The position numbers and the translations under genes are program-made. From Caldifarciminota bacterium (GTDB taxonomy: Bacteria; Hydrothermota; Hydrothermia; S141-80): DNA of 20,833 nucleotides. The notes under the pieces were generated by a model, which searched no databases, had not been told where the DNA came from, and saw only the letters and a list, made by a program, of their open reading frames with translations. The stretch covers positions 1 to 20,833 of the forward strand of contig JALUJC010000305.1 of NCBI GenBank assembly GCA_027053375.1, written 5' to 3'. Below are positions 3,327-20,454 of the stretch, one piece after another. Every line of letters begins with the position of its first letter. Within the stretch, counting starts at the first letter, position 1.

Positions 3327-3671
3327 ATGAGCATGCACCCGGAATTTGACTTCGTGGAACCCACGCTGATCCCCGAATTGCTGGAAGGGGAAGAGAAAAC
3401 CCTTCAGGCGCTGGAAGAAGCACGTGCGAAAGCACAGAACATCCTCCGAGAAGCAGAAGAAGAAGCCCGCGCGCTCCTGGAAAAGGCACGAGAAGACGCC
3501 CAGGAAGCTGCCGCAGCCTATCTTGAACGAACCCGGCGGGAACTGGAAGCCACCGCTGAAAAACGACGGGAAGAGATGAAAAAATCTCTGGAGAAAGTGG
3601 AGACACTCGGGAAACGTCACCTTGACGAGGGCATCGAATTTGTGACCCGCCTGGTCCTCGGGGAGGCGTGA
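3327..3671 (+). CDS. Coiled-coil protein resembling V/A-type ATPase stalk subunit G/H
   Basis: The 114-residue protein starts with about 20 residues rich in Pro and acidic residues, then forms one long charged helix (about residues 22-100) with heptad-like Ala/Leu spacing and repeated 'EEARAKAQ / EEEARALLEKAREDAQ' blocks. It ends IEFVTRLVLGEA, which resembles the C-terminal cap of archaeal-type ATPase subunit H/G peripheral stalks. No other ATPase subunits lie nearby, so a role in an ATP synthase is a resemblance only; a general coiled-coil scaffold is equally possible. Start ATG at 3327 follows GGGAGG. It sits 3 bases after the M16 gene and 2 bases before the acyl-CoA dehydrogenase start, so it is translated within the same run. 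Confidence 0.6.
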   Translation: MSMHPEFDFVEPTLIPELLEGEEKTLQALEEARAKAQNILREAEEEARALLEKAREDAQEAAAAYLERTRRELEATAEKRREEMKKSLEKVETLGKRHLDEGIEFVTRLVLGEA

Positions 3672-14541: not shown

Positions 14542-15977
14542 CCAAGCGGGCGGAAAAACACAACAACCAGGGTGATCAGGAGCGACCCCGCGATGTTCAG
14601 AACCAGGCCTGTCCGGGCCATATCGGACACCCGCAACCTGCCACTTCCAAAGACGATGGCATTGGGGGGTGTGGCCACAGGGAGCATGAACGCAAAGGAT
14701 GCCGCCAGGGTGGCGGCGACCATCACAGGAAGGGGAGGCTGGTGAATGCCTTCCGCAACGGCTGCAAGAATCGGAAGCAGCACCGTCGCGGTGGCAGTGT
14801 TGGAGGTCAGCTCGGTAAGAAACGTGGTAAACAGGGCCACCATCAGGATCAACACAGGATAGGGAAGGGCACCCAGGCCATGAAGACGCGTCCCCATCCA
14901 CTGCGCAAGCCCGGATATCTGAAAGGCATGGGCAAGAGAAAAACCACCACCAAACAGCAGTACGATCCCCCAGGGGATCCGAACGGCTTCTTCCCAGGAA
15001 AGCAGGGGGTTCCCCTTCCGATCCGGCAGGAAAAACAGAAGGACGGCACCCAGGATGGCCACCGTGGCGTCGTGAACGGTCTTCTGAACCCCCAGCAGGT
15101 GAGCCCATCCCGGCAGGGTCCAGGATCCCAGCGTGAGATCTTTCCGGAAAACCCAGAGCACTGCCACAAAAACAAACACCGCAAGGACCTGTTTTTCCTC
15201 CATTCGCATTGCCCCCAGCCGGGACCATGCCTCCTGGATAATCGCGCGTTCCCGTTCGCTTTCCCGATTCTGTACGGGGAACAACCATCCCGTTAGAACC
15301 CACCACGTGAAGGGGAGAAAAAGGAGCACCACGGGGAGACCTGTGCGCAGCCAGGCCACAAAAGACAGATCCACGTTAAAAATCTCCCGCAGTTGCCCCG
15401 CCAGCACCAGGTTGGGAGGGGTCCCGATCAACGTTCCAACCCCTCCAATGGAAGCGGCATAAGCCACCCCCAGTAACAGCGCACGGGCAAAATTTTCGTC
15501 ATCCACCCCATGGAGAATACTCAGAACGATCGGAAGCATCATCATCGTGGTGGCCGTGTTGGAGATGAACATGGACAGAAAGGCGGTGGCGATCATCATG
15601 GAAAGCACAAGGGTCCGGGGCCGAAACCCCAGGAATCTCAGGAGGTTCAACGCAATCCTGCGGTGCAGGTTGTGCACCTCCATGGCCCGTGCGATAAAAA
15701 ACCCGCCGATGAAGAGAAAAATGTTGGGATTCGCATAGGGTAGCGAAGCCTCCCTTGCCTTCATGACTCCAAGCAGAGGAAACAACACCAGAGGAAAAAG
15801 GGACGTTACAGGAATCGGGAGCGCCTCTGTGATCCATAAATAGGCCATCAAAAAGCTGCTCGCCAGGACCGTCCGGGCAGGGGGCTGCAGATCCTTCACG
15901 GGTATTCCGAGAAGAAGTGCAAACCCAAGGAACGCGATCCCACCATGAACATACCGTCTGTTTATGCTTCTGAACAT
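14538..15977 (-). CDS. DASS/SLC13-family anion (dicarboxylate or sulfate) transporter
   Basis: The 479-residue membrane protein has about a dozen hydrophobic segments and two inverted-repeat halves. Each half carries the family's substrate/sodium motif: SNTATTMMMLPI in the first and SNTATATVLLPI in the second. These SNT motifs define divalent anion:sodium symporters (and a few exchangers) for succinate, malate, citrate or sulfate. The exact substrate is not predictable from what I see. ATG at 15977 follows AGGGAGG, and the first 16 bases overlap the end of the DUF1122-ThiE gene, so the two are probably co-transcribed, though a functional link to thiamine is not obvious. The distal end contains the promoter of the next gene. 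Confidence 0.92.
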   Translation of the reverse strand: MFRSINRRYVHGGIAFLGFALLLGIPVKDLQPPARTVLASSFLMAYLWITEALPIPVTSLFPLVLFPLLGVMKAREASLPYANPNIFLFIGGFFIARAMEVHNLHRRIALNLLRFLGFRPRTLVLSMMIATAFLSMFISNTATTMMMLPIVLSILHGVDDENFARALLLGVAYAASIGGVGTLIGTPPNLVLAGQLREIFNVDLSFVAWLRTGLPVVLLFLPFTWWVLTGWLFPVQNRESERERAIIQEAWSRLGAMRMEEKQVLAVFVFVAVLWVFRKDLTLGSWTLPGWAHLLGVQKTVHDATVAILGAVLLFFLPDRKGNPLLSWEEAVRIPWGIVLLFGGGFSLAHAFQISGLAQWMGTRLHGLGALPYPVLILMVALFTTFLTELTSNTATATVLLPILAAVAEGIHQPPLPVMVAATLAASFAFMLPVATPPNAIVFGSGRLRVSDMARTGLVLNIAGSLLITLVVVFFRPLG

Positions 15978-17140
15978 GGCGATGCCTCCCTGATCTGGGA
16001 CCGTACGAGCCGGGTCTTCATGTCCTTTGCCGCCTGCTGGGGATCGGCAACATTAAACAGGGCAGACACGACCGCCACCATCTCGGGCACCACCTTTTGC
16101 AACAGTTGCGAGAGCCGCACCTTCGTGATCCCTCCGATCACCCCGACAGGAATATCAAGAAGATCTTTCGCCCGACAGAGAAGGGAACCCCAGTCTTCCA
16201 GTACCGGATGATCGGGACGGGTCAGGCTGTGGAAGACCGCACCGAAAGCGACATAAGCCGCACCGGCCTCCTGTGCTTTTCGGGCTCGTTCAAGGTCATC
16301 GTAGGATGACACGCCAAAATATGCTGTACCGGGCAGGATCTCCCGAACCCGCACCCAGTCTGGATCCTCCTTTCCCACATGCACCCCATCTGCTTTCAGC
16401 ATCCGGGCAAGCCCGGGATCATCGTTCACCACAAACTCCACGGCATACCGATCCGCAAGATCACGCAAACGTTCCCCCAGGCGTATCCGGCGCACACGGT
16501 CCATGGTTTTGGTCCGAAACTGAAACAGATCCACCCCACCGCGCATCACCGCCTCCGTCTTCTCCATCCAGGCTTCTTCCGACGGGAAATAGGCATCATC
16601 CGTGACAGCGTACAACCCCTGGAGACGGATGTTCAGAGGCAGGGCGCGCAGAAATGCCCGGGCCGTCGTGGCCCAGAAACCTGAGGTCTGCAGCAAAAAA
16701 TCCCGAATCTCATATTTCAGACGAAGCAGGTGATGCGCACACACCTCAGGGTTCAGGGGTTTATGCGCCTGGAGTTTGCGCCCTCCCTCGGCACCCCCTT
16801 CAGGAATATACCAGTCCCGGAACCAGGTGAACCCTGCACGATACAGCAAACGCCCCAGCGGGGTGAGCACAGGGGGAACCCCACGCTGCAACGCATGAAG
16901 GGTCCGGGGAAGCTCCTCATAGCCCACCATCAAACGCCCGCCCGGAGGAAGGCACGCAGCGATCGCACGGAACAGCCTGTCCGAATCGGAAGGTGTCCAT
17001 CCCTCAGGAGGGAAAAAGTCCAGATCCATCCAGGGCACATAGCGACCTCTTCCCTCAAAGACCAGGCCCTTCAGCACCACGGAAGAACCCACCCGGAACT
17101 CAAAGAGCGCTTCTTCCCGAAATCTCGGGCTTTCCCGCAT
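15962..17140 (-). CDS. DUF1122-ThiE fusion: thiamine phosphate synthase with N-terminal DUF1122 domain
   Basis: The 392-residue product joins two domains in one uninterrupted frame. Residues 1 to ~170 resemble DUF1122, a mostly archaeal family of unknown function: YVPWMDLDFFPP, PPGGRLMVGYE, a gVPPvLTPLGrLL block and WYIPEGGAEGGRKLQAHKP. Residues ~175-375 are ThiE-like, the enzyme that couples the thiazole phosphate and HMP-PP moieties to thiamine phosphate: LYAVTDD, FQFRTKT, VVNDDPGLA, ADGVHVGKED, FGVSSYDDLERA, VAFGAVFHSLTR and VIGGIT. The usual QLRxK and GPxFxTxTK appear altered (QFRTK, GAVFHSLTR). I prefer the ATG at 17140, which has GGAGG five bases upstream; an in-frame ATG at 17203 sits 7 bases from a TATAAT box and would add 21 residues. 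The DUF1122 call is from memory of the family pattern. Confidence 0.8.
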   Translation of the reverse strand: MRESPRFREEALFEFRVGSSVVLKGLVFEGRGRYVPWMDLDFFPPEGWTPSDSDRLFRAIAACLPPGGRLMVGYEELPRTLHALQRGVPPVLTPLGRLLYRAGFTWFRDWYIPEGGAEGGRKLQAHKPLNPEVCAHHLLRLKYEIRDFLLQTSGFWATTARAFLRALPLNIRLQGLYAVTDDAYFPSEEAWMEKTEAVMRGGVDLFQFRTKTMDRVRRIRLGERLRDLADRYAVEFVVNDDPGLARMLKADGVHVGKEDPDWVRVREILPGTAYFGVSSYDDLERARKAQEAGAAYVAFGAVFHSLTRPDHPVLEDWGSLLCRAKDLLDIPVGVIGGITKVRLSQLLQKVVPEMVAVVSALFNVADPQQAAKDMKTRLVRSQIREASPCSEA

Positions 17141-17210
17141 CCGGACCTCCGGAATCCCGGGAATGGAAAAACGGAGCGAGGAAAGACTTTTCAGACACTG
17201 CATGCACTCA

Positions 17211-17239
17211 ATTATAGATGGCCGTTCAGGAAACGTAAA
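17211..17239 (-). promoter_or_regulatory. Promoter of the DUF1122-thiE/DASS unit
   Basis: On the minus strand TTTACG (17239-17234) is followed by a 17-base spacer and the consensus TATAAT (17216-17211). The predicted start is near 17204. The -35 overlaps a GGAAACGTA element (17229-17237) that recurs in the divergent nik promoter. Confidence 0.65.
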
Positions 17240-17291
17240 CCCGCATCACATCTACGGCCTCTCGCACAAGGATGCGTATCCGTGGCAGGGT

Positions 17292-17320
17292 TTGACAGTA
17301 TGGAACGTACACTGCATGAT
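17292..17320 (+). promoter_or_regulatory. Promoter of the nickel transport operon
   Basis: TTGACA (17292-17297), a 17-base spacer and CATGAT (17315-17320). The -35 is perfect and the -10 keeps 4/6 positions. The start would be near 17327, about 43 bases before the first operon ATG at 17370. The -10 lies within the inverted repeat at 17304-17331. Confidence 0.7.
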
Positions 17321-17331
17321 GATCATACGTT
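17304..17331 (+). promoter_or_regulatory. Candidate NikR operator
   Basis: AACGTA (17304-17309) and TACGTT (17326-17331) form a perfect 6-bp inverted repeat separated by exactly 16 bases. Its total length (28) and spacing equal the E. coli NikR site GTATGA-N16-TCATAC, though the half-site differs. It covers the nik -10 element, as expected for a repressor site, and nikR is the last gene of this operon. The match is inferred from geometry and context, not from a known consensus for this lineage. Confidence 0.5.
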
Positions 17332-17369
17332 TCCAAATTTCGTCATACGCAAACCGGGAGGCACCCACG

Positions 17370-17777
17370 ATGTTGTGGATGATGCTGGTGGGTCATCTGG
17401 TTCGAGCCATTCCCCTTTCCCCGGTGCTGGGTTATCAGGTGGTCTATGGGGACGGCACACCGGTCTCCTATGCTTATGTAGAGATTCTGGACAGCACGGG
17501 GAACAGGGTGGACTCTGCCATCACCGACAGTCTGGGTCGTTTTCTCTGGATCCCTCCAGATGCCCATGCGCGGTATACCCTTCGTTTTCTTGATGGAACG
17601 GGGCATGGCGCACGCGTGGTGTACCACCCCACCGCTTCGGATACGACCGCCCGGACACCGTCTGAAACGCATACATGGTTCCTCTGGCAAAAACTCCTGA
17701 TCGGGTGGGCCGTATTCTGGGGCTCTGCCGGAACCTGGTTCTACTGGCGGGGGAGGTCCACGAATGCACATTCCTGA
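17370..17777 (+). CDS. NikL/NikN-like small membrane component of ECF nickel transporter
   Basis: The 135-residue protein has a hydrophobic N-terminal segment (1-20), an extracytoplasmic beta-sandwich-like region (VVYGDGTPVSYAYVEILDST... DSLGRFLWIPPDAHARYTLRF, the pattern of carboxypeptidase regulatory-like domains) and a C-terminal membrane helix (about 107-127) with positive charges after it. This two-helix, one-loop topology is that of the auxiliary CbiN/NikN/NikL subunits that accompany the CbiM/NikM substrate-binding protein. Sequence in these subunits varies widely, so the subtype (NikL most likely) is inferred from topology and from its position directly before nikM, which it overlaps by 14 bases. 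ATG at 17370 follows GGGAGG. Expression should be controlled by the NikR-type operator upstream. Confidence 0.65.
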   Translation: MLWMMLVGHLVRAIPLSPVLGYQVVYGDGTPVSYAYVEILDSTGNRVDSAITDSLGRFLWIPPDAHARYTLRFLDGTGHGARVVYHPTASDTTARTPSETHTWFLWQKLLIGWAVFWGSAGTWFYWRGRSTNAHS

Positions 17778-18339
17778 CGGGTTTCTCACACCGGGTGTCG
17801 CCGGGGGCACCCTTGTCGGAAGCGGACTGGCATGGGGCTGGGGGACCCACAGGCTTCGTGCGCTTTCCGTGGAGGAAATCCCCCGGCTGGGGCTCGCGGG
17901 TGCACTTCTGTTTACCCTGGAGGTGATCGCTTTTCCCATCCCCGGCGGGACTTCCGTTCACCTCTCCGGGGTTCCTCTGATCACGCTGTGGCTCGGGGTT
18001 CCTCAGGCAGTTTTTCTTTCCGGTGTGGGGCTCTTCCTCCAGGCGCTCTTTGGTCATGGGGGGATCCTGACCTGGGGCGCCAACATGCTCAACATCGGGA
18101 TTCTGGGTTCCCTTATCCCCGCTGCGTTTGTCCGGATTCACCCGGGAAGGATCAGCGTTTTTCTGGGGACCACGCTCGCCATCCTGACAGGTGCGCTGTT
18201 CACGACTGTGGAACTTTCCCTATCGGGTACCCTGCCTCTGCATCCCACCCTGTGGATCATGCTGGGCGCCACCGCACCTGTGGCCATCCTGGAAGGTCTG
18301 ATCACGGCCACCGCGGTGCATTTCCTGTCCGGACCATGA
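17764..18339 (+). CDS. nikM: Nickel/cobalt ECF transporter substrate-binding subunit NikM/CbiM
   Basis: The 191-residue integral membrane protein starts MHIPDGFL. In this family the free amino terminus and His2 help chelate Ni or Co, which fixes the start codon exactly. A further conserved His lies in GGTSVHLSG, followed by several hydrophobic helices and GANMLNIGILG. The family usually has ~200-230 residues, so this is a compact version lacking a long C-terminal extension. It works with NikQ (T component) and NikO (ATPase). Nickel rather than cobalt is inferred from the nikR gene at the end of the operon. A strong GGGGGAGG site precedes the ATG; the stop overlaps the nikQ start by 4 bases. 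Confidence 0.92.
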   Translation: MHIPDGFLTPGVAGGTLVGSGLAWGWGTHRLRALSVEEIPRLGLAGALLFTLEVIAFPIPGGTSVHLSGVPLITLWLGVPQAVFLSGVGLFLQALFGHGGILTWGANMLNIGILGSLIPAAFVRIHPGRISVFLGTTLAILTGALFTTVELSLSGTLPLHPTLWIMLGATAPVAILEGLITATAVHFLSGP

Positions 18340-18863
18340 TGCCCGTTGCTGTACGTCTGCTTCTTCTTGGATCCGGACTTGTGGGGGTCCTCTATGCCCC
18401 GCTGCCCACGCTCCGATTGCTTGCCCTGCCAGCCCTTCTTGGCAGCACCGTGATCCGTTCGTGGAGGCACCGGATCATTCACCTTCTGCCTTTCTGGGCC
18501 CTTCTGACCCTCCCCCTTCTGCTCGAGCACAGACACCCGACAAGCCCGGAACTTCCCTTACTCCGCTCCCTTCTCAGTCTGACCTGGATCTCCCTTCTCA
18601 CCCTTCCGGGACGCGTTTCTTCATCCGCCACGATTCCTCCTTTCCTCCCCCACCCTCTTCACCTGGGTCTCCTGATCGCCCTTCGCCAGCAGAGAAGGCT
18701 ACGTGACCGCCTTGTCTGGGGGATTCGTGCGTACCGGCTTTCAGAAAACGGGCGTGTGCACATCCGGTATGGCGGGTTCCTGGGGCGCCTGTTGCTCCGT
18801 CTGGATGCGCGTTCGGTGCAGATGGGCTATGCCCTCCGTCTCAGGGAGTCTAACCGTGATTAG
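18336..18863 (+). CDS. nikQ: ECF transporter T component NikQ/CbiQ-like, short
   Basis: The 175-residue protein is hydrophobic through its first ~120 residues (VRLLLLGSGLVGVLYAP, FWALLTLPLLLEH and others) and then becomes basic and helical (RQQRRLRDRLVWGIRAYRLS ... RSVQMGYALRLRES). The last part occupies the place of the cytoplasmic coupling helices of EcfT, which normally carry two Ala-Arg-Gly motifs; here they are not clearly conserved. It is also shorter than typical T components (~230-260). The assignment rests on topology and on its place between nikM and nikO. It starts at ATG 18336 overlapping the nikM stop (a second ATG follows directly) and overlaps nikO by 8 bases. Confidence 0.7.
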   Translation: MMPVAVRLLLLGSGLVGVLYAPLPTLRLLALPALLGSTVIRSWRHRIIHLLPFWALLTLPLLLEHRHPTSPELPLLRSLLSLTWISLLTLPGRVSSSATIPPFLPHPLHLGLLIALRQQRRLRDRLVWGIRAYRLSENGRVHIRYGGFLGRLLLRLDARSVQMGYALRLRESNRD

Positions 18864-19563
18864 ACTGGAACATGTCCATTTTACCTACGGGTCCGAGCAG
18901 CTCGTGCTGGAAGATCTGACCCTTCACATTCACAAAGGCGAGCGCGTGGGGATCGTGGGGGCCAATGGTGCAGGGAAAACCACGCTTCTGTTGATCATTG
19001 CAGGATTGCTGCATCCCCACAAGGGTACGGTTCACATCGCAGGACAGCCCCAGCCACAGAAGTTCCGAACATTGCGAAAAAAGATCGGGTTTCTGTTCCC
19101 GGACCCTGACGACCAGCTTCTGTATCCCCGGGTGGAGGAAGAACTGCGTGCCGCCACGAACGGCACGGATTCCAGTGTGCTGGACAGGGTGGTTCAGCGG
19201 TTTGGCCTCGCCCCCTGGATGGACCGTCCCATTCACACGTTGAGTCCGGGGTTGAAAAAACGCCTTGCCCTTGCTACGCTTTTTCTCCGAAAACCGGAGG
19301 TATGGCTGCTGGACGAACCCACTGCGGGGCTGGACCCTCGCACCCGCAAGCAACTGATCCAGGATATCCGGGAACTTCCCGGAACACTCCTGGTGGCCAC
19401 CCATGATCTGGATTTCGTATGGGATGTGTGTGAACGAACCCTTCTGCTGGAACAGGGGCATCTGCAGGCCGACGGCCCCACCCGGGTACTTCTTCAGGAT
19501 CATAACCTGTTGCAGCGGTATGGACTGGACCTGCCGCTGAAACTTCAGGGAGGACACGTATGA
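18856..19563 (+). CDS. nikO: ECF nickel transporter ATP-binding protein NikO
   Basis: The 235-residue ABC ATPase has Walker A GANGAGKTT (35-43), Q-loop FPDPDDQLL (the FxxPDxQ form typical of ECF A components), an ABC signature reading LSPGLKKRLALA instead of LSGGQ, Walker B VWLLDEPTAGLD and switch histidine THD. It powers nickel import with NikM, NikQ and the small subunit. I start it at GTG 18856, giving VIRLEHVHFTYG, the usual N-terminal strand; upstream in-frame codons belong to nikQ. A GGGAG site lies 8 bases before it. The stop overlaps the nikR start by 4 bases (ATGA). The LSPG variation may tune ATPase activity but does not by itself suggest loss of function. Confidence 0.92.
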   Translation: MIRLEHVHFTYGSEQLVLEDLTLHIHKGERVGIVGANGAGKTTLLLIIAGLLHPHKGTVHIAGQPQPQKFRTLRKKIGFLFPDPDDQLLYPRVEEELRAATNGTDSSVLDRVVQRFGLAPWMDRPIHTLSPGLKKRLALATLFLRKPEVWLLDEPTAGLDPRTRKQLIQDIRELPGTLLVATHDLDFVWDVCERTLLLEQGHLQADGPTRVLLQDHNLLQRYGLDLPLKLQGGHV

Positions 19564-19976
19564 CCAAAGTCCGCTTCTGTCTGTCCGTGGAACCCGAACA
19601 TCTTGCCCACTTTGAGCGCTGGATGGAGGCCAACGGATACACCAACCGCTCCGAAGCGTTCCGGGACCTTGTGCGTCAGCTGGTGGTGGAGGAGACCTGG
19701 GCCCGCGAGGACAGAGAGGTTTCCGCCGTGGCGGTGCTGGTGTACGATCATCACCTTTATGCCCTGCCCCAGCACCTGGTGGAGGAGGAACACCGACACC
19801 ACGAGCTGGTGCTGGCACGCACCCACGTGCACCTGGACGAACACAACTGTCTGGAGGTGGTGTTGATGCGGGGACCTGCGCCTCAGGTCAAAGCACTGGG
19901 TGATCGTCTGATCGCTCGCCGGGGCGTAAAGGTTGGCCGTCTGGTTCCCGCGCATACCGGCCAGGGACTGCCGTAA
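19560..19976 (+). CDS. nikR: Nickel-responsive transcriptional regulator NikR
   Basis: The 138-residue protein has an N-terminal ribbon-helix-helix DNA-binding domain (VRFCLSVEPEHLAHFERWME... NRSEAFRDLVRQ) and a C-terminal ACT-like nickel domain. The four square-planar nickel ligands are all present at the spacing of E. coli NikR (H76, H87, H89, C95): here His78, His89, His91 and Cys97 in THVHLDEHNCLEV. With nickel bound, NikR tetramers repress nickel uptake genes; its position as last gene of the nik operon implies autoregulation. An AGGGAGG site precedes the ATG, which overlaps the nikO stop. No intrinsic terminator is visible after the stop at 19976. Confidence 0.95.
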   Translation: MTKVRFCLSVEPEHLAHFERWMEANGYTNRSEAFRDLVRQLVVEETWAREDREVSAVAVLVYDHHLYALPQHLVEEEHRHHELVLARTHVHLDEHNCLEVVLMRGPAPQVKALGDRLIARRGVKVGRLVPAHTGQGLP

Positions 19977-20014
19977 AAAAAGAAATCCACGCCGGGACGC
20001 CCCTCCACAAAACC

Positions 20015-20043
20015 TTGACAGCCCCCGGGTTGTTGTGTACCTT
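20015..20043 (+). promoter_or_regulatory. Promoter of the pilin-like gene; leaderless transcript likely
   Basis: TTGACA (20015-20020), a 17-base spacer and TACCTT (20038-20043). The ATG at 20050 begins 7 bases after the end of the -10, which is where transcription would start, and there is no ribosome site in between. Confidence 0.65.
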
Positions 20044-20049
20044 TCCACC

Positions 20050-20454
20050 ATGCGCAGCATCACACGTTCCGGATCTGGTCTAATCAGTTTGCTGCTTGCG
20101 CTGGCGATCATCGCCTTTCTGGTCTGGTGGATGATGGGGCGCACCGGGCAGGAGGTGGAACAGGCACGGATGGCGCGAAATGCCACATCCCGCGCCCTGG
20201 TTGAAACCGATCTCCGTCAGGCAAGCATGGCGGTCCAGCAATTTCTGGCGCTCTACGGAGAACCGCCCACCCTGAACCCCAATCCGTGCACGGGATCCTG
20301 TACACTGGAAGGAAGCCAGGGACGCCTGCCGCTGAATCTTTCTCCCGGGGTGTCCCTCACCCTCCAGGCTGCAAACTGTCAGGGAGGGACAGGCGTCCTC
20401 CTTGTTCTCACCAGAGGGAACGCCCAATCCAGCCGGAAGATCTGCAGCCCCTGA
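20050..20454 (+). CDS. Type IV pilin-like (pseudopilin-like) membrane-anchored protein
   Basis: The 134-residue protein has a short basic N-terminus (MRSITRSGSG), one hydrophobic helix (LISLLLALAIIAFLVWWMM), an amphipathic helix (about 33-66) and a small C-terminal domain with four cysteines (CTGSC, NCQ, ICSP). This is the layout of type IV pilins and pseudopilins, with a possible prepilin cleavage site after Gly8 or Gly10. The usual Glu at position 5 of the mature helix is Ser. Single-pass membrane proteins of other kinds would look similar, so this is a moderate call. Its stop is directly adjacent to the stop of the convergent oxidoreductase gene. No other pilus genes are in the window. Confidence 0.6.
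   Translation: MRSITRSGSGLISLLLALAIIAFLVWWMMGRTGQEVEQARMARNATSRALVETDLRQASMAVQQFLALYGEPPTLNPNPCTGSCTLEGSQGRLPLNLSPGVSLTLQAANCQGGTGVLLVLTRGNAQSSRKICSP

Follow-up and report, generated by a model that had tools for sequence, protein, structure and literature searches.

A candidate head-to-tail NikR operator at a nickel-transport promoter, and the spacing and direction of half-sites across NikR loci

The nik operon and its regulator

The window (the whole stretch of 20,833 nucleotides that we analysed) carries a nickel-transport operon that ends in a gene for the nickel-responsive regulator NikR. The genes are as follows.

17370..17777, plus strand: nikL (weak match, below cut-off, to the NikL family NF058648, and CarboxypepD_reg)
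17764..18339, plus strand: nikM, of the CbiM family (Pfam PF01891, E = 3.4e-41)
18336..18863, plus strand: nikQ (ORF; named only from its position in the operon)
18856..19563, plus strand: nikO, the ATPase (ABC_tran; in NCBIfam, ECF ATPases come closest, below cut-off)
19560..19976, plus strand: nikR (NikR_C; the NCBIfam NikR models NF003381 and NF002815 match above cut-off)

The initial annotation had given the order downstream of the promoter as nikL-M-Q-O-R, and the ORFs and family matches confirm this (NikQ, which has no match in Pfam or NCBIfam, by its place). It had also stated that NikR keeps all four nickel ligands. Indeed, H78, H89, H91, and C97 lie at the nickel-ligand positions (E. 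coli ligand numbering) in an alignment to solved NikRs. Judged by its family sequence and these four ligands, the gene at 19560-19976 is a nikR (its score against another model, TIGR02793, is below that model's cut-off). A [NiFe] hydrogenase is encoded in the same genome, so the organism should have a use for nickel.

The ORF 3′ of nikR (19933-20454) is without a Pfam match and encodes a hydrophobic segment close to an internal start; our impression, and only that, is of a pilin-type protein.

The nik promoter and its repeats

Upstream of nikL we distinguish a promoter, a dyad, and a candidate operator with two half-sites.

17292..17320, plus strand: nikL promoter TTGACA-17-CATGAT (consensus scan, 10 of 12 matches, which by itself is no proof of function)
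17304..17331, plus strand: dyad AACGTA-N16-TACGTT (exact; spans the −10; not conserved and probably not the operator)
17322..17348, plus strand: candidate NikR operator ATCATAC-N13-GTCATAC (half-sites in head-to-tail order at a 20-bp distance; overlaps the right arm of the dyad)
17322..17328, minus strand: half-site 1, GTATGAT
17342..17348, minus strand: half-site 2, GTATGAC (17341-17348, which adds the inner flank, equals the half-site of E. coli nikA)

Both the promoter directly before nikL and the perfect 6-bp inverted repeat with a 16-base spacer over its −10 had been reported for this locus, and both are present. The −35 hexamer TTGACA is at 17292-17297 and, after a 17-bp spacer, the −10 hexamer CATGAT is at 17315-17320.

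The dyad exceeds chance only weakly. When the 166-bp intergenic stretch was shuffled (3000 dinucleotide shuffles), a perfect 6-bp dyad with N16 arose with P = 0.041, and one with any spacer from N13 to N17 with P = 0.14; for the 65 bp of the promoter alone, these values were 0.013 and 0.061. There are eight perfect 6-bp N16 dyads in the 20.8-kb window. The exact AACGTA-N16-TACGTT is found once in the 1.83-Mb genome, and an extended form of it, with up to three mismatches, gave 17 matches there versus 10 for a backward-read control.

The same intergenic stretch contains further short repeats. A perfect 9-bp inverted repeat (GGAAACGTA/TACGTTTCC) spans 17229-17334, with its arms 88 bp apart and one arm in each of the divergent promoters (P about 0.03). 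We dropped a pairing of GTATGG at 17298 with TCATAC at 17323, whose spacing is N19, and Rfam gave nothing at the gathering threshold. The divergent gene (15962-17203) encodes a fusion of DUF1122 and thiamine-phosphate synthase. Its promoter match, TTTACG-17-TATAAT, ends 7 bases 5′ of the ATG, so the mRNA would be nearly leaderless.

A candidate operator just downstream of the −10

The candidate operator (ATCATACGTTTCCAAATTTCGTCATAC) begins 30 bp from the start of TTGACA (17292 to 17322), and one base separates it from the −10 hexamer. It contains TCATACG as an exact direct repeat at a distance of 20 bp (P = 0.0077 in the intergenic stretch); the window has one other exact 7-mer direct repeat at this distance, at 3557. 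The repeat was spotted before we knew the spacing of NikR boxes, and the 20-bp spacing was then fixed from other loci. The half-site is a known one, the TCATAC/GTATGA of E. coli NikR: one half of the operator of E. coli nikA, CGTCATAC, has a single copy in the window, at 17341-17348. If one central base is removed from the E. coli operator, its best match, over both strands, is at 17322 (17 of 27 positions). The intact 28-bp operator reaches a best score of 16 at several tied places, including 17314, and 17322 is not the best. The promoter of this nickel-transport/nikR operon carries a pair of half-sites whose distance (20 bp) is within the 20-21 bp expected of a NikR operator, and these halves are direct rather than inverted as in the textbook operator.

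The site does not fit the half-site matrix of related NikR loci: its score is 3.5, whereas the 61 known boxes score 13.0 to 25.0. Within the window it takes rank 7 of 41,611, and for the intergenic stretch P is 0.16. However, this matrix was built from a pattern with three fixed positions and is no fair judge of the CAT core. Against the IUPAC box of the delta-proteobacterial type, the direct reading matches at 12 of 14 positions, with the same change in both halves, and the inverted reading matches at 11 of 14. Also, 49 of 54 N13 boxes find their best intergenic match at 17322, which is only descriptive because the boxes have a common consensus.

The promoter of a relative

A NikR match was present in 61 of the 147 genomes of the phylum. 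This phylum is probably that of WOR-3, as a named WOR-3 record (L077) is placed among its rows on the NikR tree. In the closest relative (G001; NikR 63% identical), the contig breaks off inside nikO and the promoter lies beyond the assembly (the search for NikL in this genome gave E = 1.13). The end of that contig, just before nikO (L097:3030-3055), looks like a transposase adapter sequence.

Among relatives whose promoter is assembled, G011 is the nearest; its NikR is 58% identical. The G011 nik operon opens with two extra genes. The first of these (L098:424-1206), directly 3′ of the NikR box, has no Pfam match, and the other is weakly DUF4198-like, below cut-off. The G011 promoter is TTGACA-18-CATACT, and directly after it, at L098:386-412, is the box TTGTTACGAATTTAAAATTCGTAACAA, a perfect inverted TTGTTAC-N13-GTAACAA. 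It belongs to the delta-proteobacterial type of NikR signal, which was described in 2004 (accessible part of PMC545781). The box starts 30 bp beyond the first T of TTGACA (356 to 386), as does the candidate operator in the window. The G011 box and 17322-17348 are identical at 16 of 27 positions, which is the best of the 20,806 plus-strand 27-mers in the window; if the reverse complement of the box is added, position 1168 ties with it at 16. At the fixed 30-bp offset, a match this good has P = 0.0003 (shuffles). As compared to this one relative, then, 17322-17348 is conserved in place, with half-site 1 flipped.

We also considered a change in specificity via Cys7 of the DNA-binding strand. The strand residues are R-F-C-L-S in the window's NikR, R-F-S-V-S in G011, and R-F-C-V-S in G022. 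We rejected this idea, as G022 has the cysteine and still has ATATTAC-N13-GTAATAC.

Half-site arrangement across 132 NikR loci

We compared 132 NikR loci, taking for each distinct 180-base piece of nikR only the longest locus (the window is included, and many flanks are truncated). In the gaps between crudely called ORFs (119,838 bases in all), we searched for pairs of delta-type half-sites in any arrangement. With N13 between the half-sites, inverted pairs were found in 25 loci, direct pairs in 21, and everted pairs in 4; with N14, the counts were 3, 4, and 0. The totals for the two spacings are 28, 24, and 4, versus 1, 1, and 0 in a backward-read control. Among all other gaps between 3 and 30, the counts peaked at 4 loci for inverted, 6 for direct, and 6 for everted pairs. 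Some kind of box was present in 52 loci, and 80 had none. The window is counted among these 80 because an overlapping ORF hid its promoter and because each of its half-sites is one base off the pattern. Within the limits drawn for the loci, no locus among the 132 had half-sites of the enterobacterial type; the window's promoter was masked in this search. A search of only the 160 bp upstream of nikR, without ORF calling (131 loci), found 22 inverted, 9 direct, and 2 everted pairs at N13, and at most 3 at gaps besides 13 and 14.

Could the direct pairs be inverted boxes in disguise? A third half-site beside the pair, which would indicate a hidden inverted box, was absent from all 26 of the 26 direct pairs. 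The cores TATTA and TAATA leave a half-site too symmetric for its direction to be read; once pairs that hold such a half-site are removed, 22 inverted, 21 direct, and 2 everted pairs are left. On a 53-row NikR tree, with one box per locus, the arrangement needs at least 13 changes (the shuffles average 18.7) and is therefore inherited in part, though it has often switched. For example, L105, L106, and L108, from one genus, have GTATTAC, GTAATAC, and ATAATAC as the second half-site, and the direct or inverted reading differs among them. As this reading turns on the middle of that half-site, a flip can be a single base change.

It looks as if the spacing of NikR half-sites is conserved and their direction is not. 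More broadly, and with somewhat less confidence than for the window's own operator, we think that NikR operators probably consist of two near-symmetric half-sites exactly two helical turns apart, in any direction. The head-to-tail form would then be a widespread and overlooked class that is often interchanged with the inverted form, and the window's operator would be a head-to-tail version of the enterobacterial half-site. The literature that we searched showed no account of NikR operators with direct repeats (Rodionov 2006, J Bacteriol, lies outside that coverage).

Which site does NikR use?

We propose that NikR represses its own operon, nikLMQO-R, via 17322-17348, and we give this reading a probability of roughly 0.7. 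The case is built on the place of the site, the exact repeat, and the matches to the G011 box and to E. coli. Against it stand the weak matrix score and the inverted halves of the box in G011, the only near relative with an assembled promoter.

A second possibility is that 17322-17348 is the operator but is a degenerate inverted box of the delta type, so that the direct repeat is a by-product. The inverted reading ranks 3 of 41,611 in the window, matches those 11 of 14 IUPAC positions, and agrees with the inverted box at the same place in G011; with G011 left out of the matrix, it has P = 0.23 in the intergenic stretch. This seems unlikely because the direct reading matches better, with an identical change in each half, and because direct boxes are common in NikR loci.

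A third possibility, which we consider slightly less likely still, is that NikR uses neither repeat as an operator and acts elsewhere or weakly; the direct repeat would then be due to chance or would belong to another regulator. The matrix P value of 0.16 and the other short repeats in the stretch are consistent with this, as is the fact that no relative nearer than G011 has an assembled promoter. However, chance or another regulator would not readily explain the match to that box in both place and sequence, the E. coli half-site, or the presence of nikR within the operon.

Finally, the initial annotation had proposed that NikR binds the AACGTA dyad, a lineage-specific half-site with E. coli spacing; this is very improbable, as the dyad, although perfect, unique in the genome, located on the −10, and 28 bp long like the E. 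coli operator, is only weakly beyond chance (P = 0.04), is exact in just 1 of the 132 distinct NikR loci (the window itself, and none of the 131 others; three others have it with one mismatch, every copy more than 1.3 kb from nikR), scores −21 on the matrix of NikR boxes from related loci (31 sites, with scores between 18.9 and 25.8), and is not where the G011 box lies relative to the promoter. Conservation, place, and score together led us to discard it. The initial annotation had itself named a lack of conservation among homologous operons as a ground for refutation, and as far as these loci reach, that is the outcome.

What survives of that proposal is that a NikR operator probably does sit over the nik promoter; its place and its half-site were probably given wrongly, as it is the box at 17322-17348 that matches G011. 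Nor is the half-site new: TCATAC/GTATGA is the published enterobacterial one, and non-enterobacterial NikR half-sites have been in print since 2004 (PMC545781, accessible part). What is newer is that the half-sites stand head-to-tail, an arrangement distributed widely in our sample.

Genome-wide searches for further targets

No clear second NikR target was found in the genome. TGTTAC-N13-GTAACA, with up to two mismatches, had 8 matches versus 33 for the control, none of them on the window's contig, and DTRYTAY-N13-RTARYAH, with one mismatch, had 6 versus 28. A search for a second copy of the window's box (up to two mismatches) gave 10 further matches, near the control (5+6 versus 3+3 in all). 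With a looser box pattern, applied to G000, G001, and G011, the window's site is the only exact match in its own genome (G000), and G011 has two exact matches elsewhere, so the looser pattern is unspecific; controls were about equally frequent. One of the six DTRYTAY-N13-RTARYAH matches, C329:155-181, came up again in the search for a second copy of the window's box, but it lies inside an ORF and we dropped it.

A model for repression by NikR

In our model, each [AG]T-CAT-AC half-site (17322-17328 and 17342-17348) would be occupied by one of the two-fold-symmetric ribbon-helix-helix dimers of a nickel-loaded NikR tetramer. The tetramer would need the two half-sites on one face of the DNA, that is, 20 bp or two helical turns apart. 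Just 3′ of the −10, NikR would cover the transcription start, which we infer to be at about 17327. As the candidate operator lies over this start point, binding would shut off nickel uptake and also nikR itself (autoregulation).

Why would head-to-tail half-sites be tolerated? The frame of the half-site, [GA]T-NNN-A[CT], is near-symmetric, so a flip would alter mainly the 3-bp core. With symmetric dimers on near-symmetric half-sites, direction should matter little.

NikR is a well-studied metal sensor, and its operators are usually sought as palindromes. If direction is free and only the 20-bp spacing counts, a search for palindromes in this sample would miss nearly as many NikR boxes as it finds (24 direct and 28 inverted, of 132 loci). 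The predicted nickel regulons of many phyla would then have to be redone. The arrangement also offers a direct way to test how two-fold-symmetric ribbon-helix-helix dimers recognise their half-sites.

Comparison with known systems

The NikR operator of E. coli nikABCDE, which the initial annotation gave correctly, is published as GTATGA-N16-TCATAC (PMC7055735, accessible part). The window has the same half-site, with CGTCATAC identical. However, the E. coli halves are inverted, with N14 between the heptamers, whereas the window's are head-to-tail, with N13.

The accessible part of PMC545781 gives the delta-proteobacterial NikR signal as GTGTTAC-[N13/14]-GTAACAC, along with an everted form, so the direction of the half-sites was already known to vary there (inverted or everted). 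The window shares with this signal the N13 spacing and the place upstream of nikMQO operons. It differs in its CAT core and in its direct arrangement, which is absent from the Table 4 rows in that part of the paper.

For H. pylori, the operators are described as TRTTA-N15-TAWTA with 20 nt between the centres of the pentamers (PMC5385501, accessible part), so the 20-bp spacing is found in both systems. At H. pylori ureA, the natural probe and a symmetric version of it were reported to have similar affinity (PMC7949043, accessible part). By our reading of these probe sequences, the natural one would be direct and the symmetric one inverted, with the second natural half-site too symmetric to orient surely. 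The H. pylori half-sites are AT-rich with a near-symmetric core, so their direction is partly ambiguous, and the papers speak of a pseudo-palindrome.

A precedent for freedom of direction comes from another ribbon-helix-helix protein, ParB of pSM19035: two of its dimers bind two 7-bp repeats, either direct or inverted, with high affinity (PMC9499535, accessible part). ParB reads contiguous heptads and uses no metal, whereas NikR would bind as a tetramer across a 13-bp gap.
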